The translations under genes were made by a program, and so were the position numbers. Positions 1 to 64,000 of a stretch of DNA of 64,000 bases are shown one piece after another; the first letter of the stretch is position 1, and every line of letters begins with the position of its first letter. Origin of the DNA: Terebella lapidaria (taxonomy: Eukaryota > Annelida > Polychaeta > Terebellida > Terebellidae). The notes beneath the pieces were generated by a model. It ran no database searches, was not told the origin of the DNA, and was given only the letters and a program-made list of their open reading frames with translations. The DNA lies in the NCBI GenBank assembly GCA_949152475.1, contig OX424560.1, positions 43,106,719-43,170,718 of the forward strand. Reading direction: 5' to 3'.

Positions 1-569
1 GAGGAGCAACAATTAAGTCAGCCTTTGTTACAAATCTGGGACTGCACCTGCCTCACGCTTTTTGGCTCTTTTTTTAGGACATCCAGTACCATCATTATAC
101 ATAATATTGGTTTTATCCACGAAATTTTTTTTGCAGTGTGCTTTGATATATTATGAATATACACTGTTGAATTAATATCATGTGGTACGAATATGGCGTG
201 CAAAACGGTCGTCCCCACTGTCCTGTAATACCAGTATGGCATGCCGAAATGACTATCACCATCTGCATGAAGTCATTAGATAGTTCTCCAAAGATGCAAG
301 ACCATGATAGGGAAGTTTCCACGTTGTAGTAAGGAGTATTTATAACAGTGTTATATTTTAGGGTGTTCTGATATTGCCATGATCAAAATTTTGTGCTGTT
401 AGTAGTACATATTATTTTGATACACACATTGACTAGATGTTTTGAATGAGTCAGTCTCAAATGCCGGTCTTGTTCAGGAAATGTCATTAATGTGTAAATT
501 CTGTGTGAATGTTTTACATGTAAACAGATGTGTAAATTATTTCGTCAAGTGTTGGCCTATGGCCGATTT
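1..569. repeat. Segmental repeat, near-identical to 29,152-29,720
   Basis: The window opens inside a repeat. Bases 1-569 match 29,152-29,720 at a constant offset of 29,151 with no difference noticed, until the TTTG microsatellite near 570. The right 200 bp (about 360-569) is a 5' module that recurs in diverged form at 2,701-2,900. It ends in the short hairpin TTGGCC-TAT-GGCCGA at 552-566, followed by a TTTG run. No gene is seen here. Confidence 0.9.
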
Positions 570-600
570 TCTGTTTGTTTGTTTGTTTGTGTGCACTCTA
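552..600 (+). other. Terminal-type hairpin plus (TTTG)n, array A element
   Basis: The hairpin TTGGCC-TAT-GGCCGA (552-566) follows TTTCGTCAAGTG and is followed by repeated TTTG and then GTGTGCACTCTACAGG. The same arrangement recurs at 2,883-2,935 and 29,703-29,755. At 31,855-31,900 it recurs with a changed but still paired stem (CGACC-TAT-GGTCG). It looks like the structured left end of a non-autonomous element. Confidence 0.6.
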
Positions 601-649
601 CAGGTCACAATTTTGGTCGTATCGTCATGAAACTTCACCAGAAGGTGGA

Positions 650-2010
650 CAATCAATTTCGTACCAAGTGGTAAACTTTTAGGAGGTCAAGGTCAAAAAT
701 GGAGGTCAAGGTCATAGAAAAGGTCAAAATCGAAAAATCGCAATAACTTCGCTTCTAATTGAGATTATTTTTTCTGGGTATTTTTATATTTTTCTATGGC
801 CAATTCTGCATCATCTGATGCATGTCCGATGGTCGTACGACCAAAATTCTCGATTTTCGGTCCAGGTCGAAAATTTGGGGGTCAAGAATTTAGGTTTTTC
901 CTGTCTCACAATATTCAAAACCATATTATAGAGCCAGGTTCCAATATATAATGCTGATTTTTACTCAGGAGTTGTGCCTTATCACACAGAACAAGATCCT
1001 GAAGTTTCAGAGCTCAGGGTCGAGAATTAGAGTTAAGGTCATAGTAAAGGTCAAAATCGAAAAATCGTGATAACTCTGCTTCTAATCAAGATTATTTTTT
1101 CTGTGTATTTTTATATTTTACTATGGTCAATTCCGCATCAAATGATGCATGTCTGATGGTCGTATGACCTAAACTCTCGATTTTCGGTCCAGGTCGAAAA
1201 TTTGGGGGTCATGAACTTAGGTCTTGCTTGTCTCAATTTTCAAAACCCTATTGTAGAGCCAGGTTCCAATATATGTTGCTGATTTTCACTCAGGAGTTGT
1301 GCCATATCACGCAGAACAAGATCCTGAAGTTTCAGAGCTCAGGGTCAAGGATTAGAGTTAAGGTCATAGTAAAGGTCAAAATCGAAAAATTGAGATAACT
1401 TCGCTTCTAATCAAGATTATTTTTTCTGTGTATTTTTATATTTTTCTATGGTCAATTCCGCATCACATGATGCATGTCTGATGGTCGTATGACCTGAACT
1501 CTCGATTTTCGGTCCAGGTCGAAAATTTGGGGGTCATGAACTTAGGTCTTGCTTGTCTCAATTTTCAAAACCCTATTGTAGAGCCAGCTTCCAATATATG
1601 TTTCTGATTTTTACTCAAGAGTTGTGCCATATCACGCAGAACATGACTGTGAAGTTGTAGGGCTCAAGGTCAAGAATTACAGTTAAGGTCATAATAAAGG
1701 TCAAAATTGAAAAATCGTGATAACTCCGCTTGTAATCATGATTATTTTTTCTGATTATTTTTGTATTTTTCTATGGTCAAATCCGCATCATATGATACAT
1801 GTCCGATGGTCGTATGACCAAAACTCTGGATTTTCGGTCCAGGTCGAAAATTTGGGGGTCATGAATTTAGGTTTTTCCTGTCTCACAATATACAAAACCA
1901 CATTATAGAGCCAGGTTCAAATATATATATTGCTGGATTTTACTCAGGAGTTGTGCCTGATCACGCAGAATAAGATTGTGAAGTTGTAGAACTCAAGGTC
2001 ACGAGTTTTC
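650..2010. repeat. Tandem array A, four units of about 325 bp
   Basis: The phrase TCAAAATCGAAAAATCG recurs at about 724, 1,051, 1,377 and 1,701, giving periods of 327, 326 and 324 bp. Each unit holds several AGGTCA motifs, a GGTCGTACGACC-type palindrome (some units GGTCGTATGACC) and the phrase GAAAATTTGGGGGTCA. There is no long open reading frame. A diverged version of the same unit forms array C at 32.1-32.8 kb. Confidence 0.9.
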
Positions 2011-2121
2011 CCGATCGAATTCTGCACGCTGCCAGTTCAATGTACAGCCATGGCATAATTCAGTGTTTATCCTGAGCGAAGTCTCTCCTACACACTATAC
2101 TTTACACGTGTTGAGCTTCAA

Positions 2122-2200
2122 TGAACAGAATGGCGCAGTCAGTAGAGGCGTTAGGTTTGTGTGCGAGGGGTAAGTGGTTCAATTCTCACTGTTGACTGAT
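2122..2200 (+). repeat. tRNA-derived sequence (A-box and B-box like), not a functional tRNA
   Basis: TGGCGCAGTCAGTAGAGGCG resembles a tRNA A box and D arm. GTGGTTCAATTC resembles a B box and T arm, and a run of T follows, as in a pol III terminator. The T stem is imperfect and no clean cloverleaf forms. About 120 bp upstream is shared with the opposite-strand copies near 6.0 and 10.0 kb, so this is a domain of a dispersed repeat (SINE-like) and not an isolated tRNA gene. Confidence 0.5.
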
Positions 2201-2900
2201 TTTTTTTTCTTCTAAAATTCAATTCCAAATGACTTTTTCTGTTTCTGAGTGGTCTGGTAAGCATCCCAAACCTGCCATGCTTTATGTAATTCTATTGTTT
2301 CGAATTATAATGATCACCTTTGAAGGAAAAAAAAACTGTTCCACGAATAGCGACAAACTATTTTATCGGGCTTTCTAGTGGTATCATCAAAATCTAGTTT
2401 GTTCTTTATATTTAAAGTTACAAGCCGCTTTAAATTCAGCATTACGGCCACAACTGTGAATGATCCGTGGTATTAGCTGCTAACAAATGCATGACAAAAG
2501 GCGTGTACCAGATGATATGTCTGCTTCTTATGAATCGCCACATGTCTAAGCCTCTCTATTTGTTTTGTTTACTTGTTGTCAATGTAATTTCATATTTGTG
2601 CGGGAATATTTGCTGTTTGTTATTCGCTTATTTTTAGGCTATCGATATTTGTTTTTGGATTTTTGTAATTTTGATATATTTTAGTTTTTTTAGTAGTGGC
2701 ATCATCAAAACTTTGTGCCGTTAGCATGGTTAGAGGTAATATATTATGTTGATACATACGCAAACTAGATGTTTCAAGTGGTTCAGTTTCCAATGCTATA
2801 TGTTGTCAGGGGATGCCATAAATGTGTAAATTATGAGTAAATGTTTTGAATGTAAACAAATGTATAGATTTTTCGTCAAGTGTTGGCCTATGGCCGATTT
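2201..2900. other. Non-genic interval, ends in a diverged 5' module
   Basis: No coding sequence is seen. Bases 2,240-2,440 match 12,270-12,480 closely. Bases 2,701-2,900 are a diverged copy (very roughly three quarters identical by eye) of 360-569, again ending in the TTGGCC-TAT-GGCCGA hairpin. Confidence 0.6.
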
Positions 2901-4192
2901 TTTGTATGTTTGTTTGTTTGTGTGCGCTCTACAGGCCACAGTTCTCATTGGAAATTCATGGAATTTGATAGAAAGGTTTTAGGCTGAAACAGGAAGGTCC
3001 CAGACTCTTTGTTAAGCTCAAGGTCAAATAACAAGGTCAAGGTCATGAAAACACGTAAGTGGCCACAACTCTTGTTCTAATCGTCGTAGAGACTTCAAAT
3101 CAAGTGCACATTGTAGATATACTCGAGTTCTATCTTCCGTGACCTTGACCTTGAACTTTGACCTTGACCTTGAGAAGTTCGCCTGAGGTCGAAGTCAAGG
3201 TCAAGTACGAAGGTCAGCGCAGCATATCGAGTAGTATATCGTTGGAAAGGTCTTAAGCCCCTGATTCCAGTGATATCTCATTTTTGGCGCTGCGACGTAA
3301 ACTGACGTCACAATGACGTATTAAACGTCAATAATCCGAAATTTCAAAATGTCATAACATCGTCAATAGTGTATGGAATCCCTTGAAACTTATTATGCAT
3401 TTTGACAGCATTGACCTCTACGAACTGAAGTACAAAGGTCAAAGGTCAAGGTCAAGGTCATCGAAATCCCAGAAAAACACGTTTTCTGTAATAGCATCCG
3501 TTTGAATCATCGTGGGCTCATGAAATGTGAACCATGTCATTTAGAAGGGGTATGGCAATCAGATAAATATGTCAATTCCATGATTGACCTCGAACTTTGT
3601 CTATAATCTGACAAAACTTAATCAGAATCCTATGAGTTTTTTGGATTTTACAGATATTTTTTATGTTTTCATGGCTCCAATTTTCACACATTTACTGAAC
3701 ATTAATTTTAAAGAATTTCCTTACAGTCAGTTGCAGTGTTATTTCTAGTTTATGGTCCACTTTTCACATTTGGAATAACTTGAAAACTCGCCGAGATATC
3801 AAAGTAGAAAGAGCAGTGGGGTGAATTTGATTCTCAATCCGTTCAGATGCTAATAAGCTGTAGAAACGATTACCCCCTGTGGACATGTCCCCTTCTAAAT
3901 ATACACACTCGGTTGCGAAGTAGTACAGTATATCATATATGTATCCAAGTGCACATCTCAAACAACATTTCTTTTGTTTTTTGACTCAGAGGTGTCCAAC
4001 TGGTATGATAAAGTCTAAAACTCATGTCTAAATACAGTCTGGGTCAAGCAACAGGCCACTTTATATCAGAAATTTTGGGCATGACGAACCGGGGTTTGTG
4101 AGCACCGGGTTTGTGAGCACTGTTACAGGTTCATAGTACATGTAGTGCATTGCCTAAGGCCCAATAGCTTGTATATATGCACCGGATATTAT

Positions 4193-4223
4193 TACTTGAC
4201 GAAATCAAAGATTTTGTCAAGTA
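4193..4223 (+). other. Hairpin TACTTGACGAAATC / GATTTTGTCAAGTA
   Basis: A stem of about 14 bp with a 3-nt loop, followed by TGTTGATCGG. A second hairpin of the same design with a different stem (GCCGGAAT/ATTTCGGC) lies at 4,244-4,275 and is followed by TGTTGGTCGGTTTG and TTTG repeats. Copies are at 8,186-8,216 and 8,237-8,268. Confidence 0.7.
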
Positions 4224-4243
4224 TGTTGATCGGTTCCGTTTGT

Positions 4244-4275
4244 TACTTGCCGGAATCTAAAGATTTCGGCAAGTA
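4244..4275 (+). other. Second hairpin TACTTGCCGGAATC / GATTTCGGCAAGTA plus TTTG run
   Basis: Its stem differs from the neighbour at 4,193 and from the one at 10,888, yet stays paired (GAC/GTC becomes GCC/GGC). TGTTGGTCGG and a TTTG-rich stretch follow directly. It is the probable structured left end of the array B element. Confidence 0.65.
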
Positions 4276-4599
4276 TGTTGGTCGGTTTGTTTGTTTATGG
4301 CGTTGTCTGTTTGTCCGTTTGTTTGTGCGCGCTCTAGCGTCCACAGTTTTCGAGCTAGCATTCCGAATTTTTTTTGATAGATAGGTATCCGCTCTGGGAC
4401 GGGACCGCACGTTTTTGGAAAAAATCGGTTCACTGATGACGTCACCAAAAATTCTTGAAAACTAAAAAAATCCCTATCTCTCATCATTGGCGAATTTTAA
4501 AAAATTCACACAGCAGCCACATTTAAACCGATACTTCTGAAATTCAGCACAGGGATATATAATAGTATCCTCCATCAAACTGCGAAGTTTTACTCGGAT

Positions 4600-5870
4600 T
4601 GTTTGAACGTCAATGACGTCACGACGTGAAACGTCATTTTTCAAAATGGGGCTATATATCGGATAGTATTTGTCGTACAGAGAAGCGAATTGCACCATTG
4701 GAAAGCTCGTTGAATTCTGGTTCAGAAGGGTACTGTCCGATACTTTTCCGCCATGATAGATTTTCCGCTATGACGTCATAAACGTAAGGCCTGTCATACC
4801 AATTTTTCGACTTTTCAGCAAACTTTCAAACATCCACAGTGCACTCAATTTTAAAGTTATTAGGCTGTAATTATCAGAACCTATGTGGAATAATGATACC
4901 CAGCCATATACCAAGTTTTAACACGCTACGTGTAACGTCAATGACGTCATGACGTAAAACGTCAATTTTCGAAATGGGGCTATATATCAAAAAGTATCTG
5001 TCGTACGGAGAAGCAAATTGCACCATTGGAAAATTCGTTGAATTCTGGTTCAGAAGGGTACTATCCGATACTTTTCCGCCATGATAGATTTTCCGCTATG
5101 ACGTCATAAACGTAAGGCCTGTCATACAAATTTTTCGACTTTTCAGCAAAATTTCAAACATCCACAGTGCACTCAAATTTGAAGGTTTGGAACTGTAATT
5201 ATGAGAACCTATGTGAAATATTAATATACAGGCATATACCAAGTTTCAACGCGCTACGTTCAACGTCAATGACGTCATGACGTAAAACGTCAATTTTAAA
5301 AATGGGGCTATATATCTGAAAGTATTTATCGCACAGAGAAGCGGATTGTACCACTCGAAAGCTCGTTGAATTCTCGTTTAGGAGGGTACTGTCCGATACG
5401 TTTCCGCCCTGATAGATTTTCCGTTATGACGTCATAAACGTATGGCCTGTCATACCGATATTTCGACCTTTCAGCAAACTTTCAGACATCCACAGTGCAC
5501 TCAAATTTAAAGATATTAGGCTGTAATTATCAGAACTCATGTGGAATGATACTTCCCAGCCATATACCGAGTCTCAACACGCTAGGTGAAACGTCAATGA
5601 CGTCACGACGTGAAACGTCATTTTTCGAAATGGGGCTATATATCGGAAAGTATTTGTCGTACAGAAAAGCGAATTGCACCATTGGAAAGCTCGTTGAATT
5701 CTGCTTTAGAAGGGTACTGTCTGATACTTTTCCGCCATGATAGATTTTCCGCTATGACGTCATAAACGTAAGGCCTGTCATACCAATATTTCAACTTTTC
5801 AGCAAACTCTCAAACATCCACAGTGCACTTCAATTTAAAGGTATTAGACTGTAATTATCAGAACAATAGA
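4600..5870. repeat. Tandem array B, four units of 328 bp
   Basis: AACGTCAATGACGTC recurs at about 4,606, 4,934, 5,262 and 5,589 (periods 328, 328, 327). Each unit contains CRE-like TGACGTCA palindromes, GGGGCTATATATC and the phrase TCCGATACTTTTCCGCC. No long reading frame is seen. The array is duplicated at 8,593-9,863 and has a diverged two-unit relative at 31.3-31.75 kb. Confidence 0.92.
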
Positions 5871-5962
5871 ATAGATAAAAGGGTGACTGTGGAAAACATA
5901 TCAGAATTAATACAAAAAAAACACTCAGAAAAAGTAATTTAGTTGGAATTTAAAAAAAAAAA

Positions 5963-6036
5963 GTGGCAATAGGAATCGAACTCCTGACCCCGCGCACCAA
6001 CACCTAACGCCTTTACTGACTGAGCCAAACCGTCAC
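5963..6036 (-). repeat. tRNA-like 74-mer on the minus strand
   Basis: Read on the minus strand, a 74-nt segment begins GTGACGG and ends TTGCCAC, pairing 6 of 7 positions as an acceptor stem with two G-T wobbles. It has GGCTCAGTCAGTAAAGGC at the D arm and GAGTTCGATTCC at the T arm, followed by a T-run. The D and T stems are degenerate, so a working tRNA is doubtful. A tRNA-derived, pol III-type repeat is more likely. Sequence upstream of it matches that upstream of 2,122 and 12,167. Confidence 0.55.
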
Positions 6037-6369
6037 TTGAAAGTTGTTGAGTGTGAAGCATATAGCGTACAAGAGACAGCCCTCAGAATAAATGCAGGTA
6101 TGTCTCATGGCTGCGCATTGGTGTGGCTGCTGTGGCGGCAGCGTGAGGAATTTTTTGAGATTTTTTGTGACCTCTTCACTTGACCGATTTTCACGAAAAT
6201 TGAACCGTTTCTAGCCTTCAACCTCGGTGTATGGCTGGGTATTATTATTCCACATGAGTTTCGCGATATTAAATCAAAATCAAGCCTGAAGCAGAAAGCA
6301 CAAAGAATCTACTACTTCGTGCCTTTATGGAGATAACAAAAAAGTGTTTCATGAATATGAGTGGAATAT

Positions 6370-6500
6370 TTCAGTGTGTCTTCGGATGAACTATTTGATC
6401 GAGCTACAATTTTCATTGCAAACTGTTGTATTTTACGTTTGTTTTTGGCATCATCAAACTCTGACTGCATCATACAGGTTAAATTTCCGAAATTCCAAAA
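6370..6500 (-). pseudogene. Exon-like fragment with QSEFDDAKNKRKI peptide
   Basis: On the minus strand this reads a peptide with QSEFDDA, KRKI, QFA and EDTL. The same peptide pattern (QS-DFDDAN-KKRKI, HFA, SKDTL) is encoded on the plus strand at about 61,845-61,985 and again at 62,225-62,355, at roughly 80 percent nucleotide identity by eye. I do not recognise the protein. It may be an exon fragment captured by mobile elements. The tandem duplicate is at about 10,363-10,493. Confidence 0.4.
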
Positions 6501-8592
6501 GGCCATAACAGCGTCAATACTGTATGGAATATCTTGAAACTTGATATACCCATTGATAACATTGACCTCTACGAATTGAACTACATAGGTCAAAGGCCAA
6601 GGTCAAGGTCATCAAAATCCCATTTGGACATTTGGTATTATGGATTTGTTTTTTCTGGATTTGGTATTATAGGGAGATTTATACATATCTAATGAGGAAA
6701 ATTTTCAATTCTCAGTTTGATTCTTCTATTTGTTTTGACGTAACTAACGTTTTTATCACGGAAAAATGATGAATATTCACTCTCACATTCAGAATGGCCA
6801 GGTACATGAAGATTGTAAAAAATCTAGGTTACCCAGTAGAAGGTCAAGATCACTGGCAGCACTTCCGGCAAGTTAGTCGACTATGTCGGTTCATTTGTAT
6901 GTTTGTTTGTTTGTGTGCGCTCTACAGGCCACAGTTCTCATTGGAAATTCATGGAATTTGATAGAAAGGTTTTAGGCTGAAACAGGAAGGTCCCAGACTC
7001 TTTGTTAAGCTCAAGGTCAAATAACAAGGTCAAGGTCATGAAAACACGTAAGTGGCCACAACTCTTGTTCTAATCGTCGTAGAGACTTCAAATCAAGTGC
7101 ATATTGTAGATATACTCGAGTTCTATCTTCCGTGACCTTGACCTTGAACTTTGACCTTGACCTTGAGAAGTTCGCCTGAGGTCGAAGTCAAGGTCAAGTA
7201 CGAAGGTCAGCGCAGCATATCGAGTAGTATATCGTTGGAAAGGTCTTAAGCCCCTGATTCCAGTGATATCTCATTTTTGGCGCTGCGACGTAAACTGACG
7301 TCACAATGACGTATTAAACGTCAATAATCCGAAATTTCAAAATGTCATAACATCGTCAATAGTGTATGGAATCCCTTGAAACTTATTATGCATTTTGACA
7401 GCATTGACCTCTACGAACTGAAGTACAAAGGTCAAAGGTCAAGGTCAAGGTCATCGAAATCCCAGAAAAACACGTTTTCTGTAATAGCATCCGTTTGAAT
7501 CATCGTGGGCTCATGAAATGTGAACCATGTCATTTAGAAGGGGTATGGCAATCAGATAAATATGTCAATTCCATGATTGACCTCGAACTTTGTCTATAAT
7601 CTGACAAAACTTAATCAGAATCCTATGAGTTTTTTGGATTTTACAGATATTTTTTATGTTTTCATGGCTCCAATTTTCACACATTTACTGAACATTAATT
7701 TTAAAGAATTTCCTTACAGTCAGTTGCAGTGTTATTTCTAGTTTATGGTCCACTTTTCACATTTGGAATAACTTGAAAACTCGCCGAGATATCAAAGTAG
7801 AAAGAGCAGTGGGGTGAATTTGATTCTCAATCCGTTCAGATGCTAATAAGCTGTAGAAACGATTACCCCCTGTGGACATGTCCCCTTCTAAATATACACA
7901 CTCGGTTGCGAAGTAGTACAGTATATCATATATGTATCCAAGTGCACATCTCAAACAACATTTCTTTTGTTTTTTGACTCAGAGGTGTCCAACTGGTATG
8001 ATAAAGTCTAAAACTCATGTCTAAATACAGTCTGGGTCAAGCAACAGGCCACTTTATATCAGAAATTTTGGGCATGACGAACCGGGGTTTGTGAGCACCG
8101 GGTTTGTGAGCACTGTTACAGGTTCATAGTACATGTAGTGCATTGCCTAAGGCCCAATAGCTTGTATATATGCACCGGATATTATTACTTGACGAAATCA
8201 AAGATTTTGTCAAGTATGTTGATCGGTTCCGTTTGTTACTTGCCGGAATCTAAAGATTTCGGCAAGTATGTTGGTCGGTTTGTTTGTTTATGGCGTTGTC
8301 TGTTTGTCCGATTGTTTGTGCGCGCTCTAGCGTCCACAGTTTTCGAGCTAGCATTCCGAATTTTTTTTGATAGATAGGTATCCGCTCTGGGACGGGACCG
8401 CACGTTTTTGGAAAAAATCGGTTCACTGATGACGTCACCAAAAATTCTTGAAAACTAAAAAAATCCCTATCTCTCATCATTGGCGAATTTTAAAAAATTC
8501 ACACAGCAGCCACATTTAAACCGATACTTCTGAAATTCAGCACAGGGATATATAATAGTATCCTCCATCAAACTGCGAAGTTTTACTCGGAT

Positions 8593-9863
8593 TGTTTGAA
8601 CGTCAATGACGTCACGACGTGAAACGTCATTTTTCAAAATGGGGCTATATATCGGATAGTATTTGTCGTACAGAGAAGCGAATTGCACCATTGGAAAGCT
8701 CGTTGAATTCTGGTTCAGAAGGGTACTGTCCGATACTTTTCCGCCATGATAGATTTTCCGCTATGACGTCATAAACGTAAGGCCTGTCATACCAATTTTT
8801 CGACTTTTCAGCAAACTTTCAAACATCCACAGTGCACTCAATTTTAAAGTTATTAGGCTGTAATTATCAGAACCTATGTGGAATAATGATACCCAGCCAT
8901 ATACCAAGTTTTAACACGCTACGTGTAACGTCAATGACGTCATGACGTAAAACGTCAATTTTCGAAATGGGGCTATATATCAAAAAGTATCTGTCGTACG
9001 GAGAAGCAAATTGCACCATTGGAAAATTCGTTGAATTCTGGTTCAGAAGGGTACTATCCGATACTTTTCCGCCATGATAGATTTTCCGCTATGACGTCAT
9101 AAACGTAAGGCCTGTCATACAAATTTTTCGACTTTTCAGCAAAATTTCAAACATCCACAGTGCACTCAAATTTGAAGGTTTGGAACTGTAATTATGAGAA
9201 CCTATGTGAAATATTAATATACAGGCATATACCAAGTTTCAACGCGCTACGTTCAACGTCAATGACGTCATGACGTAAAACGTCAATTTTAAAAATGGGG
9301 CTATATATCTGAAAGTATTTATCGCACAGAGAAGCGGATTGTACCACTCGAAAGCTCGTTGAATTCTCGTTTAGGAGGGTACTGTCCGATACGTTTCCGC
9401 CCTGATAGATTTTCCGTTATGACGTCATAAACGTATGGCCTGTCATACCGATATTTCGACCTTTCAGCAAACTTTCAGACATCCACAGTGCACTCAAATT
9501 TAAAGATATTAGGCTGTAATTATCAGAACTCATGTGGAATGATACTTCCCAGCCATATACCGAGTCTCAACACGCTAGGTGAAACGTCAATGACGTCACG
9601 ACGTGAAACGTCATTTTTCGAAATGGGGCTATATATCGGAAAGTATTTGTCGTACAGAAAAGCGAATTGCACCATTGGAAAGCTCGTTGAATTCTGCTTT
9701 AGAAGGGTACTGTCTGATACTTTTCCGCCATGATAGATTTTCCGCTATGACGTCATAAACGTAAGGCCTGTCATACCAATATTTCAACTTTTCAGCAAAC
9801 TCTCAAACATCCACAGTGCACTTCAATTTAAAGGTATTAGACTGTAATTATCAGAACAATAGA
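8593..9863. repeat. Tandem array B, second copy
   Basis: Four 328-bp units, the duplicate of 4,600-5,870 carried by the 3,993-bp tandem duplication. Confidence 0.9.
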
Positions 9864-9955
9864 ATAGATAAAAGGGTGACTGTGGAAAACATATCAGAAT
9901 TAATACAAAAAAAACACTCAGAAAAAGTAATTTAGTTGGAATTTAAAAAAAAAAA

Positions 9956-10029
9956 GTGGCAATAGGAATCGAACTCCTGACCCCGCGCACCAACACCTAA
10001 CGCCTTTACTGACTGAGCCAAACCGTCAC
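9956..10029 (-). repeat. tRNA-like 74-mer, duplicate
   Basis: Duplicate of the minus-strand tRNA-like sequence at 5,963-6,036, with the same box-like motifs and flanking T-run. Confidence 0.55.
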
Positions 10030-10362
10030 TTGAAAGTTGTTGAGTGTGAAGCATATAGCGTACAAGAGACAGCCCTCAGAATAAATGCAGGTATGTCTCA
10101 TGGCTGCGCATTGGTGTGGCTGCTGTGGCGGCAGCGTGAGGAATTTTTTGAGATTTTTTGTGACCTCTTCACTTGACCGATTTTCACGAAAATTGAACCG
10201 TTTCTAGCCTTCAACCTCGGTGTATGGCTGGGTATTATTATTCCACATGAGTTTCGCGATATTAAATCAAAATCAAGCCTGAAGCAGAAAGCACAAAGAA
10301 TCTACTACTTCGTGCCTTTATGGAGATAACAAAAAAGTGTTTCATGAATATGAGTGGAATAT

Positions 10363-10493
10363 TTCAGTGTGTCTTCGGATGAACTATTTGATCGAGCTAC
10401 AATTTTCATTGCAAACTGTTGTATTTTACGTTTGTTTTTGGCATCATCAAACTCTGACTGCATCATACAGGTTAAATTTCCGAAATTCCAAAA
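10363..10493 (-). pseudogene. Exon-like fragment, tandem duplicate
   Basis: Duplicate of the fragment at 6,370-6,500, carried by the 3,993-bp tandem duplication. Confidence 0.4.
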
Positions 10494-10887
10494 GGCCATA
10501 ACAGCGTCAATACTGTATGGAATATCTTGAAACTTGATATACCCATTGATAACATTGACCTCTACGAATTGAACTACATAGGTCAAAGGCCAAGGTCAAG
10601 GTCATCAAAATCCCATTTGGACATTTGGTATTATGGATTTGTTTTTTCTGGATTTGGTATTATAGGGAGATTTATACATATCTAATGAGGAAAATTTTCA
10701 ATTCTCAGTTTGATTCTTCTATTTGTTTTGACGTAACTAACGTTTTTATCACGGAAAAATGATGAATATTCACTCTCACATTCAGAATGGCCAGGTACAT
10801 GAAGATTGTAAAAAATCTAGGTTACCCAGTAGAAGGTCAAGATCACTGGCAGCACTTCCGGCAAGTTAGTCGACTATGTCGGTTCAT

Positions 10888-10916
10888 TACTTGACGAAAT
10901 TAAATTTCGTCAAGTA
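10888..10916 (+). other. Hairpin TACTTGACGAAAT / ATTTCGTCAAGTA with TTTG/TCTG run
   Basis: A 13-bp perfect stem, then TGTTGGTCAG and a mixed TCTG/TTTG microsatellite leading into the second copy of array A. It has the same position and design as the hairpins at 4,193 and 4,244. Confidence 0.7.
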
Positions 10917-10939
10917 TGTTGGTCAGTTGAGTTTGTCTG

Positions 10940-13490: not shown

Positions 13491-13496
13491 ATGATG

Positions 13497-52934: not shown

Positions 52935-53102
52935 GGACAGAAAAGTGAAGCTTCTGCGCAGCTGCGCGCGCATATGCGCGGCGGTTTTGGCGGCAAAAGG
53001 AGCGCTCGAGTCATGCAGGCAGACGATCGTGCCTTGCTTTCAGTACGCGAATTTCTATCCAGAACGATCCAAAGGATCGAAAAGGAGCATGTAGTAGTTT
53101 AG
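52935..53102. repeat. DIRS right inverted terminal repeat
   Basis: Inverted partner of 46,792-46,959. The element ends about 22 bp further on, at ATAAAATAAAC. Confidence 0.9.
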
Positions 53103-53124
53103 ATTGGTGATGTATAAAATAAAC

Positions 53125-53680
53125 GTCCAAGGAGTGTCCACCATGACATACTGGAAGTAGCTCAAGTATTTCGATCTGTACTCATTGGAAAGGAGACAGG
53201 AGTGTTATACCATCATATATATATATATATGTCTGGCGCATCTTAGAAAAACAAATCCCACACATATATCAGACACACAGCATGGGGGGATTGGCTCCTG
53301 TATCACTGCAGGTGTGGTCGGTCTTCCGTCGTCCCACTTGTCTCCAGCAAAGCTCCGTCGTGACACAGGTCAGGCGAATCAGATACTAGTATGACCCCCT
53401 CACGGTCAGAGGCCCTCGGCTTTTCAACATACTCCCGAGGAGCATCAGGAACCTAACCAACTGCTCAACTGATCGCTCCAACGTTCACTGGACAACTATC
53501 CGAGTACAGTGCCGGATGAACCTCAAATACCTGGGTACATGTCACAAAGGAGAGCTGCATCAAACAGCCTTGTTTACATGACCCACCTCATTGCCCCAGA
53601 TACGTCAGTATGGGAAGGAAGGGGATGAGGATGACTGGACTAACAATGTCAGCCCACAGAGAGGAGAGACTCTCTTGAAA
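53125..53680 (+). pseudogene. LINE relic, part 2 (3' tail of ORF2)
   Basis: It continues the LINE interrupted at 46,743. It reads TMTYWK, a stop, then LKYFDLYSLERRQECYTIIY, a TA microsatellite (about 53,216-53,230) and further on RLFNILPRSIRNLTNCSTD, a typical CR1/RTE ORF2 C terminus. A stop codon and frame changes show it is dead. Confidence 0.8.
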
Positions 53681-53939: not shown

Positions 53940-54650
53940 AGATGCAGTCGCTACAGAAAAATGCCGACTCGGCAAAAAATTTCGGGTCAAGGTCAAAGTT
54001 CATCCATAATACCCCTTAGACATGTTTGTCTAGGTTGCCGAGTCCAAAAATGACGTCCGTTTCGCTCTATGACTCATTGTTTCCGAGATATGGACGAAAA
54101 GGAAAAATGCTGAGTCGGCAAAAAAATTTCGGGTCAAGGTCAAAGTTCATTCATAATACCCCTTAGACATGTTCGTCTAGGTCGCCGAGTCCAAAAATGA
54201 CGTCCGTTTCGCTCTACGACTCACCGTTTCCGAGATATGGACGAAAACGAAAAATGCCGACTCGGCAAAAAAATTTCGGGTCCAGGTCAAAGTTCATCCA
54301 TAATACCCCTTAGACATGTTTGTCTAGGGCGACAATTCGAAAATTAACGTCTATTTCGCTCTACGACGCACCGTTTCCGAGATATCGACGAAAACGAAAA
54401 ATGCCGACGAAAAATTTCGGGTTAAGGTCAAAGTTCATCAATAATACCCATTAGACATGTTTGTCTAGGGCGACCAGTCCGGAAATAACGTCCGTTTCGC
54501 CACGAAAAATGCCGACTCGGCAAAAAAATTTCGGGTCAAGGTCAAAGTTCATCAATAATACCCATTAGACATGTTTGTCTAGGGCGACGAGTCCGAAAAT
54601 AACGTCCGTTTCGCTCTACGACGCACCGTTTCCGAGATATGCAGGATGCC
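53940..54650. repeat. Tandem array D, first copy, about five units of up to 147 bp
   Basis: AAAATGCCGACTCGGCAAAA, GGGTCAAGGTCAAAGTTCAT and TAGACATGTTTGTCTA recur. Units are diverged and two are shortened. The monomer contains two dyads, GCCGA-C-TCGGC and TAGACA-TGTT-TGTCTA. Confidence 0.9.
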
Positions 54651-55250
54651 TCAAGGATGACTCAGCAAAAAATTATTTCGACCTCTAGGTCAAAGGTCGT
54701 TTGAGGTATCGATCCCAAAATCAATAGGGTTCTTCCCTGTTGATATATAAACCTCCGTGCAAAATTCTGCAACTATTTTTCGAGTTATCGTCCGGAAACC
54801 AAGTTTCAAGATCAGCCTCGATTTCATCCTCAAGGACCTCACGGACCTCGGAGCCGGATCAAAAAAAATAATACACCCTAGAGATGTTTGTCTAGGGCGA
54901 CGAGTCCGAAAATAACGTCCGTTTCGCTCTACGATGCACGGTTTCTGAGATATGCAGGAAGCCTCAAGGATGAATCAGCAAAAAATTATTTCGACCTCTA
55001 GGTCAAAGGTCGTTTGACGGATCGATCCCAAAATCAATAGGGTTCTTCCCTGGTGGCATATGAACCTCCATGCAGAGTTCTGCAACTATTGCGTAAATAT
55101 TTTTCCAGTTATCGTCCGGAAACCAAGTCTCAAAACTAGACGCTTCCGGTCGCCTACGACCGCTTGGGTGTATCCCCCGTAGCCCTATCATCCCTGTTGC
55201 CCCAAATATATCACTGATGTACATTGTGAGTGTGAAACCTTTCAAGCTTA
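54651..55250. repeat. Array D tail module, first copy
   Basis: Contains CCCAAAATCAATAGGGTTCT twice (about 54,716 and 55,027), with TCATCCTCAAGGACCTC between. The same tail follows the second array D at 60,950-61,560, so array plus tail move as one element. Confidence 0.85.
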
Positions 55251-56310: not shown

Positions 56311-57142
56311 TTTTGGTGTTACTCTAGCTATATAATATCAATTTAAAGTGATAACCGCGTCTCATTGAGATGGAAAGCAAATAAAAACATATTGTTATTT
56401 GAATTTATTCATACACTTATGCATTACGCATTAGTCACCAACATGCTTGGGATACTTTTCACAAGCAGAGAACAATAATGTAGAATATCTTCATTGGCTA
56501 TCTTAACACATGAATATGATGGAACATGGTACTATGATATTGGTACTGCTATATTGGATGAATTGACATATTAGTTGATGATGTCTTCACCATTGCCCTG
56601 CATTCTCTTGCAGTACAACAACGTTGTCTTGAGCTGTCCGACATCAATTGCATTACAACTGTTCAGCCCCAGGAGAGTGGCAACCCGTACACGAAGGTGT
56701 GTCTAGATCAATGAATGAGACTAGATCAATAAATGAGACTATTGTGGCAAAAGTAATGTAGAATTTTCCAGAACTGAGATAGAGGATGTTGAGTGGTATG
56801 ATGTCGGACAGCTCAAGACAACGTTGTTGTACTGCAAGAGAATGCAGGGCAATGGTGAAGACATCATCAGTTAATAATAGGTCAATTCAGCCAATATAGC
56901 AGTACCAATATCATAGTACCATGTTCCATCATGTTCATGTGTTAAGATAGCCAATGAAGATATTCTACATTATTGTTCTCTGTTTGTGATATAAAAAGTA
57001 TCCCAAGCATGTTGGTGACTAATGCGTAATGCATAAGTGTATGAATAAATTCAAATAACAATATGTTTTTATTTGCTTTCCATCTCAATGAGATGCTGTT
57101 ATCATTTTAAATTGATATTATATAGCTAGAATAACACCAAAA
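56311..57142. mobile_element. 832-bp foldback element, arms about 340 bp
   Basis: Left arm 56,311-56,646 and right arm 56,799-57,142 are inverted copies with only scattered differences. The loop is 152 bp. Ends read TTTTGGTGTTA and TAACACCAAAA-like. No clear target duplication and no coding sequence. Transcripts would form a long hairpin. Confidence 0.9.
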
Positions 57143-59042
57143 TTAGCCCAAGGGCTAAGAAAGGTTACCGGACAATATACATTTTAGATATTAGCCTTTT
57201 GTCCAGTGACCTTGAAAATAAAGTCACTGATAAATTCAAGGCCATGAAATTTTCAACAAATATATCAATTCTAGTATGTCCACAATAAATTCCTAAGCTG
57301 TAAAGACGATAATAAGTGAGACATTAGCCATTCTGTGATGTGACCTTGAAAATGAGGTCAAAGGTCAAATTCAAGGTCATGACAATAATCTGCATATATC
57401 ATTTCCTATATGTTCATAATTGATTCCTAAGCTGTAAAGTCGATAATAAGCGAGATATTAGCTATTTCGTGGTCTGACCTTGAAACTGAGGTCAGAGGTC
57501 AAATTCAAGGTGACGAGAATATTCAGCATATATCATTTCCTATATGTCCACAATTGATTTCTAGTGTGTAATCTCAATATTGAGTGAGATATTAGGCTTA
57601 ATGTGTCCCATTATAAAGCATAGGAGAGTTTAACATGGAAAAGTCTCATTTGGGCCGAGTTTGGGCCAAAATGGCCCACTTCCAGCGATTCAAGCGCAAC
57701 GAAACTTATACACATCACAGGAGTACATATGAGGAGTGTTATTTATTAAAAAGAAACTTGAAAATGAGGCCAAAGGTCAAATTCAAAGTCACAAAAATAT
57801 TATGGATATATCATTTCCTATATGTCCACGATTGATTCCTAGGCTGTAAAATCGATAATAAGCGAGATATTAGCCATTTTGTGCTATGACCTTGAAAATA
57901 AGGTGAAAGGTCAAATTTAAGGTCATCAGAATATTCAGCGTATATCCTTTCCTATATGTCCACATTTGATTCCAAAGCTGTAAAGTCGATAATAAGCGAG
58001 ATATTAACCATTTTGTCCCGTGACCTTGAAAATGAGGTCAAAGGTCAAATTCAAGGTCACGTGAATATTCAGCATATATCATTTCCTACATGTCCACAAT
58101 TGATCCCTAAGCTATAAAATCGATAATAAGTGAGATATTAGCCATTTTGTCCTGTGACCTTGAAAATGAGGTCAAAGGTCAAATTCAAGGTTATGACAAT
58201 AATCTGCATATATCATTTCCTATGTTCATAATTGATTCCTAAGCTGTAAAGTCTATGAGAAGTGAGATATTAGCCATTTTGTCCTGTGACCTTGAAAATG
58301 AGGTCGAAGGTCAAATTCAAGGTCATTAGAATATTCGGTATATATCATTTCCTATATGTCCACAATTGATTTCTAAGCTGTAAATTCGATAATAAGCGAG
58401 ATATTAGCCATTTTGTTCTTTGACCTTGAAACTGAGGTCAGAGGTCAAATTCAAGGTTACGAGAATATTCAGCATATAACATTTCCTATATGTCCACAAT
58501 TGATTCCTAGTCTCTAATCTCAATATTAAGTGAGATATAAGGCATAATGTGTCCCATTATAAAGCATAGGAAAATTTAACATGGGAAAGTCCCATTTGGG
58601 CCAAGTTTGGCCCAAAATGGCCCACTTCGAGCGATTCAAGCGCAACGAAACTTATACACATCACAGAAGTACATATGAGGAGTGTTGTGTATCAAAAAGA
58701 AAAAAAGTTACTGAACAGTTTTTGAGAAAATGGCCGCCAAAGTCCAAAATCAGGCATTTTTCATCGAAAACGGCCGCCATTTTGAAAATTAGCCCAAGGA
58801 CTAAGAAAGGTTACCGGACAATATACATTTTAGATATTAGCCTTTTGTCCAGTGACCTTGAAAATAAAGTCACTGATAAATTCAAGGTCATGAAATTTTC
58901 AACAAATATATCACTTCTAGTATGTCCACAATAAATTCCTAAGCTGTAAAGTCGATAATAAGTGAGACATTAGCCATTCTGTGATGTGACCTTGAAAATG
59001 AGGTCAAAGTTCAAGTTCAAGGTCATGAAAATATTCAGTATA
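57143..59042. repeat. Tandem array E, 134-bp units, first copy, with interspersed module
   Basis: TGACCTTGAAAATGAGGTCA is the recurring core, spaced about 134 bp, roughly ten units. The array is interrupted near 57,590-57,760 and 58,545-58,785 by a module with AAAGTCCCATTTGGGCC and AAAATGGCCGCC. The border TTAGCCCAAG-CTAAGAAAGG at 57,143 recurs at 58,786, giving a higher-order period of 1,643 bp. Confidence 0.9.
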
Positions 59043-59709
59043 CAGGAGAACTCCAGCCTGCGGTCACTCCAGAAATGTGGTCAACCCATGCATTGTGGTC
59101 AGATGCATTGGTCCCGAACGCCAGCATAGGCATTTACATGTTAAGGTTACGCCTATAATGTGGCCACTCCCCTTATCCACAATGCGGTCAGTGTATCTGG
59201 TCACAAAAGCCCATAAAATCACACAATACGGCCACCAAGCAGCCAACGTCCCCAAAAACTCACTGATGCGGTCAATTGAACATTAGCCTCAAGCGGCCAG
59301 CCGTCTGCAAGTCTTCATTCACCGATGCGGTCAGCTGAACATTTACATTAGCCAAGAGCAGCAAGCCGACCGGCTGTCTGCGTGTCACTTCTTCACACCT
59401 TTCTTCTCTTGGCTTACCCAAACGTTGATAAACACACCTCGTACTCGCATCATGTTGATCATGATTTGGCTAAACGCCGCCAAACAACAATCACATCTTT
59501 CTTCAAAAAGTGACATTCAGTTGTTCTAAATATTCTGTTAGTAAACTGTATTGACATTTTAGTATTTGTGCTTCAAATATTACATTTATGATATAACTTG
59601 GTTCAATAAAATGCTATTCACATATAAACTACATGTACATGTTTTATTTAACTCATACACATGTACAAATTGTATAATATATGTTGATTTTCGCTTGAGT
59701 TAACATCAG

Positions 59710-60950
59710 ATAAACACTAGACGTCAAGGCCTAAAGATGCCTTGGAGGCATTTCGGTGTGATGAATAATTTATAATACTAGATATCGACAAAATGAAAAA
59801 TGTCGACAAATTTCGGGTCAAGGTCAAAGTTCATCCATAATACCCGCTAGACATGTTTGTCTAGGGCGACGAGTCCGAAAATACCATCCGTTTCGCTCTA
59901 CGACGCACCGTTTCCGAGATATCGACGAAAACAAAAACTGCCGACTCGGCAAAAAAATTTCGGGTCAAGGTCAAAGTTAATCCATAATACCCCTTAGACA
60001 TGTTTGTCTAGGGCGACGAGTCCGAAAGTAACGTCCGTTTCGCTCTACGACGCACCGTTTCCGAGATATCGACGAAAACGAAAAATGCCGACTCGGCAAA
60101 AAAATTTCGGGTCAAGGTCAAAGTTCATCCATAATACCCCTTAGACATGTTTGTCTAGTGCGACGAGTCCGAAAATAACGTCCGTTTCGCTCTACGACGC
60201 ACCGTTTCCGAGATAACGACGAAAACGAAAAATGCCGACTCGGCAAAAAAAATTTCGGGTCAAGGTCAAAGTTCATCAATAATACCCCTTAGACATGTTT
60301 GTCTAGTGCGACGAGTCCGAAAATAACGTCCGTTTCGCTCTACGACGCACCGTTTCCGAGATATCGACGAAAACGAAAAATGCCGACTCGGCAAAAAAAT
60401 TTCGGGTCAAGGTCAAAGTTCATCCATAATACCCCTTAGACATGTTTGTCTAGTGCGACGAGTCCGAAAATAACGTCCGTTTCGCTCTACGACGCACCGT
60501 TTCCGAGATATCGACGAAAACGAAAAATGCCGACTCGGCAAAAAAATTTCGGGTCAAGGTCAAAGTTCATCCATAATACCCCTTAGACATGTTTGTCTAG
60601 TGCGACGAGTCCGAAAATAACTTCCGTTTCGCTCTACGACGCACCGTTTCCGAGATATCGACGAAAACGAAAAATGCCGACTCGGCAAAAAAATTTCGGG
60701 TCAAGGTCAAAGTTCATCCATAATACCCCTTAGACATGTTTGTCTAGTGCGACGAGTCCGAAAATAACGTCCGTTTCGCTCTACGACGCACCGTTTCCGA
60801 GATATCGACGAAAACGAAAAATGCCGACTCGGCAAAAAAAATTCGGGTCAAGGTCAAAGTTCATCCATAATACCCCTTAGACATGTTTGTCTAGAGCGAC
60901 GAGTCCGAAAATAACGTCCGTTTCGCTCTACGACGCACCGTTTCCGAGAT
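59710..60950. repeat. Tandem array D, second copy, about eight 147-bp units
   Basis: ATGCCGACTCGGC starts at 60,085, 60,232, 60,380 and 60,527, period 147-148. Units in the middle are almost identical, unlike those at 53.9 kb, which points to recent homogenisation. Confidence 0.93.
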
Positions 60951-61606
60951 ATGCAGGATGAATCAAGGATGAGTCAGCAAAAAATTATTTCGACCTCTAG
61001 GTCAAAGGTCGTTTGAGGTATCGATCCCAAAATCAATAGGGTTCTTCCCTGGTGATATATAAACCTCCGTGCAAAATTCTGCAACTATTGCCTGAATATT
61101 TTTTGAGTTATCGTCCGGAAACCAAGTTCCTCGATTTCATCCTCACGGACCTCACGGACCTCGGAGCCGGATCAAAAAAAAAAAGTACACCCTAGAGATG
61201 TTTGTCTAGGGCGACGAGTCCGAAAATAACGTCCGTTTCGCTCTACGACGCACGGTTTCCGAGATATGCAGGAAGCCTCAAGGATGAATCAGCAAAAAAT
61301 TATTTTGTCCTCTAGGTCAAAGGTCGTTTGACGGATCGATCCCAAAATCAATAGGGTTCTTCCCTGGTGGCATATGAACCTCCATGCAGAGTTCTGCAAC
61401 TATTGCATAAATATTTTTCCAGTTATCGTCCGGAAACCAAGTCTTAAAATTAGCCTTGATTTCATCCTCACGGACCTCACGGACCTCCGATCCGGCTCAA
61501 AAAGAGTAGGGTTCTTCCTCATATCATTTCTGACTTGCGGTGAAAATTTGACAAGGATCCGTCAAGGCAATCTAAAGTTATCGTCCGGAAACCAAAAGTG
61601 GCGGAA
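60951..61606. repeat. Array D tail module, second copy
   Basis: Matches 54,640-55,140, including the two CCCAAAATCAATAGGGTTCT phrases and TCATCCTCACGGACCTC. Confidence 0.85.
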
Positions 61607-61610
61607 GAAG

Positions 61611-61644
<34 letters not shown>

Positions 61645-61682
61645 CTGCTAAAACCATAAAGGCATTTCTGCCGAAATGCCTT
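61607..61682 (+). other. A-run and terminal hairpin AAGGCATTTC-TGCC-GAAATGCCTT
   Basis: About 33 A residues, then a perfect 10-bp hairpin at 61,659-61,682. A related motif GCCTTGGAGGCATTTC lies at 59,746, on the other side of the array. It is the probable right end of the array D element. Confidence 0.65.
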
Positions 61683-61844
61683 AAATATGGCCGGTGCAAA
61701 ATATGGCTTGAGTCCTGTAATGTGGCCACTCCTATAATGTGGCCAAAATCACTGGTACGATGGGTGACCACATTACTGGAGTTCTACTGTATATCATTCC
61801 TCTATATTCGCAATTGATTCCTATGCTGTAAATGTAAGTATCAA

Positions 61845-61985
61845 TCTATTACCACCAATACAATCAGATTTTGATGATGCCAATAAGAAACGTAAAATAC
61901 TACATTTTGCAATAGAAACAAACAAAGCCCGACCAAATAGTTTATCCAAAGACACACTGGCGTCTTCAGGGGCAGACAATGTGTT
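61845..61985 (+). pseudogene. Exon-like fragment, copy with QSDFDDANKKRKI
   Basis: Reads QSDFDDANKKRKI, HFAIETNKARPNSLSKDTLA, then SSGADNVLNVVVSTVHNVHQ. It is preceded by ACAATCAG, a possible acceptor. It is repeated at 62,225-62,355 and related to minus-strand fragments at 6.4 and 10.4 kb. The protein is not recognised. Confidence 0.45.
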
Positions 61986-62224
61986 AAATGTAGTTGTTTC
62001 TACTGTACACAATGTACACCAGATGGAATTAGTATACAACTGCCCAACAACCTATGAAAATAATTTAGAAATCCGAATCTAACCCCATGGAATAGATACA
62101 TGACAAGTACAAAAGTACCCAATCACAAGCCCGAAGGCTACTGAGTTGATGGTATCCTCGGGGACAGATTTAACGTCCGCCAGTAGTGACACCGACTCAG
62201 TGGTACAAATGTAAGTATCAATCT

Positions 62225-62355
62225 ATTACCACCAATACAATCAAATTTTGATGATGCCAATAAGAAAGGTAAAATACAACATTTTGCAATAAAAACAAAG
62301 CCCGCCCAAATAGTTTATCCAAAGACACACTGGCGTCATCAGGGGCAGATGTAAA
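62225..62355 (+). pseudogene. Exon-like fragment, second copy
   Basis: Direct repeat of the fragment at 61,845, with the same upstream GTAAGTATCAATCTATTACC (62,211). It is frame-shifted after KTK relative to the first copy. About 380 bp separate the two. Confidence 0.45.
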
Positions 62356-62359
62356 GATG

Positions 62360-63615
62360 ATAATAAGCGACATATTAGCCATTTTGTTCTCTGACCTTGA
62401 AAATGAGATCAAAGATCAAATTCTAGAACACCAAAATATTCAGCATACATCATTTCCTATATGTTCACTATGGACCTCTAAGCTGTAAATTTGATAATAA
62501 GCGAGATATAAGCCATTTTGTATTCTGACCTTGAAAATAAAATGACTAACCTTGAAATTTAGGGCAAGGGTCAAATTCAAGGTCACTAGAATATTCAGCA
62601 TATATCATTTCCTATATGTTCACAATTGATTCCTAAGCTGCAAAGTCGCTAATAAGCAAGATATTGGCCATTTTGTCCTGTGACCTTGAAAATGAGGTCA
62701 AAGGTCAAATTCAAGGTCACGAGAATATTCAGCATATATCATTTCCTATATGTTCACAATTGATTCCTAAGCCATAAAGTCGATAATAAGCGAGATATTA
62801 GCAATTTTGTCCTGTGACCTTGGAAATGAGGTCAAAGGTCAAATTCAAGGTCACGAGAATATTCAGCATATATCATTTCCTATATGTTCACAATTGACTC
62901 CTAAGCCGTAAAGTCGATAATAAGCGAGATATTAGCAATTTTGTGCTATGACCTTGAAAATAAGGTCAAAGGTCAAATTTGAGGTCATCAGAATATTCAG
63001 CGTATATCCTTTCCTGTATGTCCATATTTGATTCCTAAGCTGTAAAGTCGATAATAAGCGAGATATTAGCCATTTTGTCCCGTGACCTTGAAAATGAGGT
63101 CAAAGGTCAAATTCAAGGTCACGTGAATATTCAGCATATATCATTTCCTACATGTCAACAATTGATCACTAAGCTGTAAAATCGATAATAAGTGAGATAT
63201 TAGCCATTTTGTCCCATGACCTTGAAAATGAGGTCGAAGGTCAAATTCAAGGTCATGACAATAATCTGCATATATCATTTCCTATATGTTCATAATTGAT
63301 TCCTAAGCTGTAAAGTCGATAAGAAGTGAGATATTAGCCATTTTGTCCTGTGACCTTGAAAATGAGGTCAAAGGTCAAATTCAAGGTCATCAGAATATTC
63401 GGTATATATCATTTCTTATATGTCCACAATTGATTTCTAAGCTGTAGAGTCGATAATAAGCGAGATATTAGCCATTTTGTTCTTTGACCTTGAAACTGAG
63501 GTCAGAGGTCAAACTCAAGGTCACGAGAATATTCAGCATATATCATTTCCTATATGTCCGCAATTGATTCCTAGTCTCTAATCTCAATATTAAGTGAGAT
63601 ATAAGGCATAATGTG
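62360..63615. repeat. Tandem array E, second copy, about nine 134-bp units
   Basis: GACCTTGAAAATGAGG-type cores start at 62,682, 62,816, 62,950, 63,084, 63,218, 63,352 and 63,486, exactly 134 bp apart. Each unit has TGACCT-N8-AGGTCA, an everted pair of half-sites. Confidence 0.94.
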
Positions 63616-64000
63616 TCCCATTATAAAGCATAGGAAAATTTAACATGGGAAAGTCCCATTTGGGCCAAGTTTGGCCCAAAATGGCCCACTTCGAGCGATT
63701 CAAGTGCAACGAAACTTATACACATCACAGGAGTACATATGAGGAGTGTTGTGTATCAAAAAGAAAAAAAGTTACTGAACAGTTTTTGAGAAAATGGCCG
63801 CCAAAGTCCAAAATCAGGCATTTTTCGTCGAAAACGGCCGCCATTTTGAAACAAATGCGAAAATCGAAAAACAAAAAAAAACCTTTCCTTGAAATATTTT
63901 TAGGTATTTTTGTGCAAAATTTCAGAAAGATTCGATCATATACTTTAAAGATAAAAATGTGAACGGACGACGGACGGACGGACGGACGGACGGACGACGG
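63616..64000 (+). repeat. Array E 3' module and GACG microsatellite at window end
   Basis: The module with AAAGTCCCATTTGGGCC and AAAATGGCCGCC matches 58,560-58,790. The window ends in a GACGGACG run (63,963-64,000), so the element's right end is cut off. Confidence 0.85.

Follow-up and report, generated by a model that had tools for sequence, protein, structure and literature searches.

Satellite arrays as probable central repeats of several HINE families, some of them nested, in a 64-kb stretch of the Terebella lapidaria genome

Arrays, element ends and a Helentron in the window

This study concerns five tandem-repeat arrays (A to E), and the mobile elements in which they lie, in a stretch of 64,000 nucleotides from the annelid Terebella lapidaria (GCA_949152475.1, contig OX424560.1, positions 43,106,719 to 43,170,718 of the forward strand); this whole 64-kb stretch is called the window below. 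The arrays were located and their periods measured with Tandem Repeats Finder. All five were found with the periods given in an earlier note on this DNA, as were the microsatellite tracts, the A-run and the GACG-type runs listed there (Table 1). The arrays had also been described as differing in sequence, but A and C have stretches of 117-170 bp in common at 72-81% identity, with a local score of 131 against a shuffled mean of 18.6. These two are evidently distant relatives over part of the monomer, and the array families are not all independent.

Between the clusters of repeats lies the Helentron that the earlier note had placed in the same window. Its open reading frame (ORF) is real and uninterrupted, and the domains that it specifies (DUF6570, OTU, Helitron_like_N, PIF1 helicase and Exo_endo_phos) fit an autonomous Helentron. 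Helitron_like_N, PIF1 and Exo_endo_phos scored above their cut-offs in one protein, a combination of Rep, helicase and apurinic-like endonuclease.

A hairpin scan for stems of at least 9 bp, a limit under which short palindromes (stem about 5-6) fall, gave 65 stems in the window against 20, 25, 36, 28 and 23 in five block-shuffled windows, an excess partly due to repeated copies and coding DNA. Twelve end windows were then folded as DNA and scored (z) against shuffles, the right ends at 10856, 29690 and 58785 standing outside this set. Left-type hairpins gave z values of -6.2 (10888), -5.9 (4193), -7.4 (4244), -6.3 (35576, minus strand) and -5.7 (61659, minus strand). On the plus strand this class comprises 10888, 4193 and 4244, on the minus strand 35604 and 61682. 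Each of the five has a repeat of about 11-15 bp, next to it the inverted copy, and beyond that a T- or pyrimidine-rich microsatellite or run on the same strand. Right-type palindromes gave -2.1 (552), -1.7 (2883), -1.4 (6884), -1.8 (31861) and -0.4 (12.9k), and on the minus strand -3.2 (59.7k) and -1.9 (57.1k). They stand behind a ATTTCGTCAAG, TTCCGGCAAGT, GTCCGGTAACC or CCGAAATGCCT-like repeat, and a T-run comes after most of them. As structure alone the right-end class is weak; the case for it consists of position and the adjoining 3' subterminal repeat. In the accessible parts of the literature, the features of the left class match the left flank, and those of the right class the right flank, of HINEs, which are non-autonomous Helentrons (PMC7492417; PMC4067079).

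All nine hairpins of the earlier note were found in place, but the single plan in which it had ordered them was not confirmed; the long left hairpins and the short right palindromes are distinct classes, and two kinds of end and two strands had been mixed. Four of the seven hairpins that it listed as 5' (552, 2883, 29703 and 31861) are right ends, and both of those listed as 3' (35,576 and 61,659) are hairpins with a microsatellite on the minus strand, that is, left ends of minus-strand elements.

Table 1. Repeat arrays, putative HINEs with their ends and junctions, and the Helentron ORF in the window
Feature	Position	Strand	Description
Array A	683-2001 and 11053-12044		period 325-327 bp
Array B	4606-5864 and 8599-9857		period 328 bp
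Array B, partial copy	31041-31748		83% similar
Array C	32009-32811		period 329 bp
Array D	53956-54500 and 59808-60952		period 147 bp
Array E	57186-58545 and 62549-63609		period 134 bp
TTTG/TCTG-type tracts	starts 570, 2901, 4285, 6894, 8278, 10932, 29721, 31878		
A-run	61611		
ACGG run	63963		
GACG run	near 35530		
HINE tail and right end (RF-A0)	349-568	+	3' subterminal repeat 539-550, palindrome GGCC-TAT-GGCC 554-564, T-run; rest of element lies before window
A1	569-2899	+	TTTG tract 570-589, array A 683-2001, tail, right end 2870-2899; left hairpin absent
HINE a body, first copy	2899-4192	+	no tandem array; begins within its TTTG tract
LF-a	4193-4243	+	left hairpin TACTTGACGAAATC..GATTTTGTCAAGTA and TTTG tract, start of HINE a; broken by HINE b
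HINE b, complete	4244-6892	+	left hairpin 4244-4275, tract, array B 4606-5864, tail, right end
b, 3' subterminal repeat	6863-6873	+	TTCCGGCAAGT; palindrome reaches 6887
Second copy of 3,993-bp unit	6892-10884	+	a body, LF-a 8186, HINE b 8237-10880
A2	10887-12482	+	left hairpin 10888-10916, tract 10932-10959, array A 11053-12044, tail cut at 12482
E-family HINE fragment	12481-12893	+	right end TTAACCCTTGGGCTAATTTT
Helentron ORF	15717-22286	-	2,189 codons without stop
Recombinant locus	29152-30912	+	1-570 joined to a body; A1 unit lacking
B-like element	31041-31875	+	array remnant 31041-31748, right end 31846-31872 (GACC-TAT-GGTC)
TCTG tract and array C	31878-32811	+	array 32009-32811
Left end of minus-strand HINE (35.6k)	35530-35604	-	hairpin AGCTTACCGGCCC..GGGCCGATAAGCT, then GTCC/GTCG run
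D1	53956-55139	-	array D and 3' part of D family
D2	59736-61682	-	left hairpin 61682-61659, T-run (A-run on plus), array D 59808-60952
D2, right end	59756-59746	-	CCGAAATGCCT
E-family HINEs	57139-64000	-	GTCC-type run 63963-64000, array E, right ends 58785 and 57139
Right-end junction	539	+	into TTTG tract of A1
Right-end junctions	2870, 29690 and 6863	+	into TTTG tract of a
Right-end junction	10856	+	into complete left end of A2
Right-end junction	31846	+	into TCTG tract of C
Right-end junction	58785	-	into E element, about 115 bp from its GTCC-type run

Probable assignment of the arrays to HINE families

Several of the arrays are probably the central repeats of HINEs of several families, some of them nested. 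Inverted subterminal repeats with an exact match (11/11 bp) occur at both ends of one copy in two elements: in b, ACTTGCCGGAA at 4245-4255 has its exact inverse, TTCCGGCAAGT, at 6863-6873, and in D2, AGGCATTTCGG likewise has its exact inverse over 11 bp. In A the agreement is found across copies, the left repeat (10888) matching the right one at 539 in 12/13 positions and that at 2870 in 11/13. An inverted copy lies beside the 5' repeat at the left ends LF-a, LF-b, LF-A, 35.6k and D2, which fold at z -5.7 to -7.4. A TT target without duplication is represented by one empty site (b in a, see below) and by T-runs at three E-family right ends (12.9k, 57.1k and 58.8k), which end at the same TTTT while their flanks differ. 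The b, A and E elements contain no ORF of 150 codons; only one such ORF (61332-61817) touches D2, and it passes through the A-run; another, of 169 codons (32709-33218), touches the end of array C.

Read on its own strand, a complete element would begin with a 5' subterminal repeat and its inverted copy (the long hairpin), followed by a T- or pyrimidine-rich microsatellite, a spacer and the central repeats, and would close with a tail, the inverted 3' subterminal repeat, a short palindrome and a T-rich end. Under the established model, if it holds for these elements, transposition would start with a nick made at the 5' end by a Helentron enzyme; rolling-circle copying of one strand would follow and stop at the 3' palindrome, and the copied strand would be joined into a TT site without target duplication.

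Several points weigh against this assignment. Both ends are present in one copy only in b and D2, and the HINE ends were defined from the window alone. The right-end palindromes are short and fold weakly, only that of D2 (z -3.2) clearly exceeding shuffles. The left and right ends of A come from different copies. The E left end falls beyond the window, and the GTCC-type run of its left flank is cut by the window end. HINE a has a left end, but its right end was not found in the window; inverted subterminal repeats at both ends were found neither for a nor for C, and the ends of D1 were not found either. No own ends were assignable to C in the window, and C counts as a HINE by tract and array only. 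The earlier likening of the arrays to HINE and Pearl-type elements with central satellites is supported for b and D2, and in part for A and E.

It is highly improbable that the elements are instead miniature inverted-repeat transposable elements (MITEs) or foldback elements, with terminal inverted repeats (TIRs) and target duplications. Elements of that kind are also present in the window (26652, 33314, 56311 and 59041). In the elements considered here, however, the two ends are unlike in kind, and the inverted repeats that they have in common are short and subterminal. TIRs with target duplications had been named beforehand as evidence against a Helentron origin, and no duplication was seen where b is inserted in a.

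In the accessible parts of the cited papers, the closest likeness is to Cg_HINE of the Pacific oyster, Crassostrea gigas, for which satellites carried by HINEs have already been published (PMC7492417). Shared features are a left flank of subterminal inverted repeat (subTIR), inverted copy and microsatellite (GTCY, GTCC or GTCK in several there), central satellite-like arrays, a right flank of subTIR and palindrome, a TT target, and several families per genome with no autonomous partner found. Unlike the oyster elements, whose consensus monomers are 138-181 bp, A, B and C have monomers of about 325-329 bp, several microsatellites here are TTTG/TCTG, and no HINE-in-HINE insertion at a microsatellite was met in the accessible text of that paper. 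DINE-1 and the HINEs of mite and mosquito (PMC4067079, PMC2374699) are described with the same subTIR and inverted repeat, a GTCY-type microsatellite, central repeats, a 3' stem-loop (weakly folding here), a T-rich target and no target duplication. The HINEs of those species, however, share 95-98% with a partner Helentron, whereas no partner was identified here, and the 3' subTIR lies 38-60 bp from the end in the mite versus about 30 bp here. Bivalve Pearl elements, compared by description only (via PMC7492417), similarly have short arrays between flanking modules and a microsatellite next to the core, but with repeats of about 160 bp. Scans of viral and prokaryotic contigs and a phage BLAST with the D repeats, which say nothing of the source genome, found no relative; three stretches of viral contigs matched a peptide pattern, none of them confirmed.

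The number of families was judged from the subTIRs. Those of A/a and b are identical in 11/13 positions in register (longest run 6), and those of 35.6k and E, the latter deduced from right ends only, in 10/13 (longest run 7); the other pairs agree in at most 5/13. The repeats accordingly fall into at least three unlike groups. A family rule in print asks for a subTIR with 11 or more identical bp and for 80% identity over the terminal 60 bp (PMC4067079, in its accessible part). Under its 11-bp part D2, E and the A/a-b group appear to be separate families, and A/a and b would count as one family on a loose reading only.

The earlier note had proposed that the Helentron at 15.7-22.3 kb mobilises the array families, which is improbable. 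An uninterrupted ORF with Rep, helicase and endonuclease domains does lie between the clusters, but within the surrounding 16.3 kb (12894-29151) no match to any of the five subterminal repeats (those of A/a, b, D2, E and the left end at 35.6k) was found, even with one mismatch allowed. The two matches at two mismatches (one for A/a and one for E, against shuffled means of 0.87 and 0.80) are at chance level. The window has one copy of the Helentron, and its own ends were not found when 12894-15716 was searched against 22287-29151 for inverted pairs. Twelve distinct exact inverted pairs of at least 11 bp (17 before merging) span these flanks, none of them in a left-type hairpin by eye; the best, a 12-bp pair at 13823/28456, was rejected, having a palindrome on one side only and the wrong order. 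Mobilisation by this Helentron is therefore unsupported, as is the idea that this one enzyme seeded all the arrays. In the accessible text of the oyster study, none of 10 autonomous Repbase elements with the Helentron-type Rep motif 2 could be linked to its HINEs (PMC7492417).

Nesting and head-to-tail chains

LF-a stops within its TTTG tract exactly at the start of b, and past the right end of b the tract resumes and is followed by the a body. When 4190-4243 and 6889-6990 are joined to restore the empty site, the product can be aligned to the intact left end at 10885-10990 through hairpin, tract and GTGTGCNCTCTACAGG. On this reading, element b entered the TTTG microsatellite of a different HINE, a, at a TT site; no duplication of the target is seen. 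The stretch 4193-6892 has the form of the self-inserted composite Helitrons of Fusarium, with two successive 5' ends and one 3' end, which was explained there by one element within another (PMC5148889); unlike here, neither a microsatellite target nor satellites were met in the accessible part of that paper.

Ten right ends of the window were tabulated with their downstream neighbour and its orientation. For seven, the downstream neighbour is the left-proximal part of a further HINE that has the same orientation; three (12.9k, 57.1k and D2) lead into other DNA, and a recognised inverted HINE followed none of the ten. Eight junction kinds are distinct, and three of these fall in TTTG/TCTG tracts. 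Such tracts, in plus orientation, account for 66 of the 11,434 oriented TT/AA sites in the window, or 66 of the 3,539 in the two clusters. In a binomial comparison with random TT sites, three of eight kinds in tracts gave p = 1e-5 (window) or 3e-4 (clusters), and four of ten junctions p = 2e-7 or 2e-5.

Set against an explanation of these junctions by insertion, both junctions are visible only for b in a. Nor are all the junctions independent: those at 539 and 2870 lie in homologous sequence, 78% alike across 275 bp (the RF-A0 region aligning with 2672-2943), and 29690 is their recombinant. The probabilities, moreover, were calculated post hoc, with the pattern already seen. The chains could alternatively be rolling-circle multimers with lost ends, or the outcome of unequal recombination between the identical right ends and the TTTG tracts of neighbours, and this is a real contender that falls somewhat short of an even chance. 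The 3,993-bp unit that begins at 2899 is directly repeated 3,993 bp further on; over 3,990 compared positions the copies differ at 4, of which two lie at the junction. Between 1-570 and 29152-29721 there is no difference at all, and beyond 29721 the sequence is identical to the a body in the second copy for the rest of the 1,190 positions compared. The locus at 29k looks like the first locus minus one right-end-to-right-end unit (A1), with an exchange that appears to sit in identical right-end sequence, and tandem truncated Helitrons have been described in what is accessible of PMC12628747 and PMC5148889. On the other hand, b in a has both junctions expected of a simple insertion, and partners from different families meet at the junctions (b into a, B-like into C, E into E), something that a multimer built from a single element would not produce.

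Near-identical duplicated blocks within repeat-rich DNA also raise the question of whether the nested and duplicated layout of 1-12.9 kb and 29.1-32.8 kb is a misassembly. This is unlikely, since the b-in-a empty site and the end structures are independent of the duplications, and b, D2 and E follow the same plan at separate places.

The position of b within the tract of a, together with the seven of ten junctions in the same orientation, suggests that the T-rich microsatellite beside each left end may act as an oriented landing pad for other HINEs. Head-to-tail chains of unlike satellites would grow by serial insertion at such pads and would then be shortened as right ends recombine. That HINEs carry their own target in this way, with the left T-rich microsatellite taking other HINEs in the direction of the element, is put forward tentatively, as possible rather than likely. 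SaTar elements of guayule and rice (PMC5907723) are comparable in that microsatellite targeting strings unrelated elements into arrays. They differ, in the accessible account, in being Mutator-like with TIRs and in lying in flanking microsatellites, none interrupting another, whereas the microsatellite here is part of the element itself and is split by the insertion.

Much of this picture is in print already, to judge from the accessible parts of the sources: several HINE families per genome (PMC7492417), nested and shuffled Helitron loci (PMC12628747), self-insertion with several 5' ends (PMC5148889) and plant arrays of microsatellite-targeted elements (PMC5907723). What is new here is the position of b in the TTTG tract of another HINE, and the same-orientation junctions of right ends with left parts. 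No report of a HINE's own microsatellite as an oriented target for other HINEs was found among the matches listed in a literature search covering titles and the starts of abstracts, which did show related work, with subscription journals mostly outside it. Coates, in 2010, reportedly dealt with GAAA microsatellites.

Motifs, neighbouring elements and wider meaning

Unlike repeats (687-714, 3018-3460, 53987 and 57186-63609) carry AGGTCA/TCAAGGTCA motifs, with 79 copies of TCAAGGTCA in the window, and array B carries TGACGTCA. AGGTCA occurs 3 times in a single monomer of A, once in one of D and 4 times in one of E (shuffled means 0.2, 0.07 and 0.06) and 15 times in the a body (mean 0.72); the b tail has 6 motif copies (mean 0.48), and one B monomer has 6 ACGTCA (mean 0.25). 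Both motifs were absent, by motif counts, from C and from the A tail. A weaker thought is that unlike central repeats converge on transcription-factor-like motifs, which could help to open DNA for transposition. In the Helentron region, however, AGGTCA is found 13 times, the shuffled mean being 7.1 and the maximum of 20 shuffles 12, and the TIR element at 33314-35428 has 13 ACGTCA against 1.1 expected. With motif excess also outside the HINEs, and a decayed hexamer repeat explaining the pattern as well, a function as transcription-factor motifs was set aside. A literature search with the motif string gave no Helitron-titled work among the matches listed, one of which presents a viewer for tandem repeats.

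The E-family HINEs at 57139-64000 are interrupted by two other elements, both in array E. That at 59041-61788, which holds HINE D2, has inverted 14-bp ends (TACAGGAGAACTCCAG / TACAGTAGAACTCCAG) with TA on both sides, and we take it to be pogo-like. That at 61830-62346 has direct terminal repeats of about 147 bp (93%) with TGTAAA on both sides and resembles a terminal-repeat retrotransposon in miniature (TRIM). A foldback element with 344-bp arms at 95% (56311-57142) adjoins an E-family right end. The element at 33314-35428 has 115-bp inverted ends (97%) of TTGACGTTATGCGCA-type repeats, and a short element at 26652-27290 is present in two copies, with GGCCCAAGTATCATA-type inverted ends and 74 bp shared at 89%. 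A2 switches at 12482 to an E fragment and is a mosaic, its left end being of the A family and its right end of the E family.

At 46738-53125 lies an element with an RVT_1 reverse transcriptase, a weak match, below cut-off, to Phage_integrase (tyrosine recombinase), and split inverted repeats (46770-46960/52934-53125 and 46738-46804/47022-47088); it is presumably DIRS- or Ngaro-like. A 36-bp minisatellite of about 168 copies (37949-43803) is strongly C-rich on the plus strand (GC 0.61-0.64, skew -0.6) and contains long proline-rich open frames. Two exon-like pieces at 44456-44808 on the minus strand belong to an L37ae ribosomal protein gene (PF01780), a probable host gene among the repeats. In style, the repeats would suit a marine invertebrate such as a mollusc. 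Two stretches, 2038-2241 and 5926-6120, look by eye like tRNA-derived short interspersed elements and are 69% alike when one is inverted, although neither the tRNA scan nor the Rfam scan of the window gave a hit.

The window gives exact end sequences with which to test a general question, that of the enzyme by which satellite-carrying HINEs are moved. The window also supplies a countable prediction, namely where and in which direction HINEs enter HINEs, that bears on the linkage and spread of satellite arrays. The landing pad, if true, would be a reason why DINE-1 and HINEs keep their microsatellite, and would indicate how unlike satellite arrays become linked.

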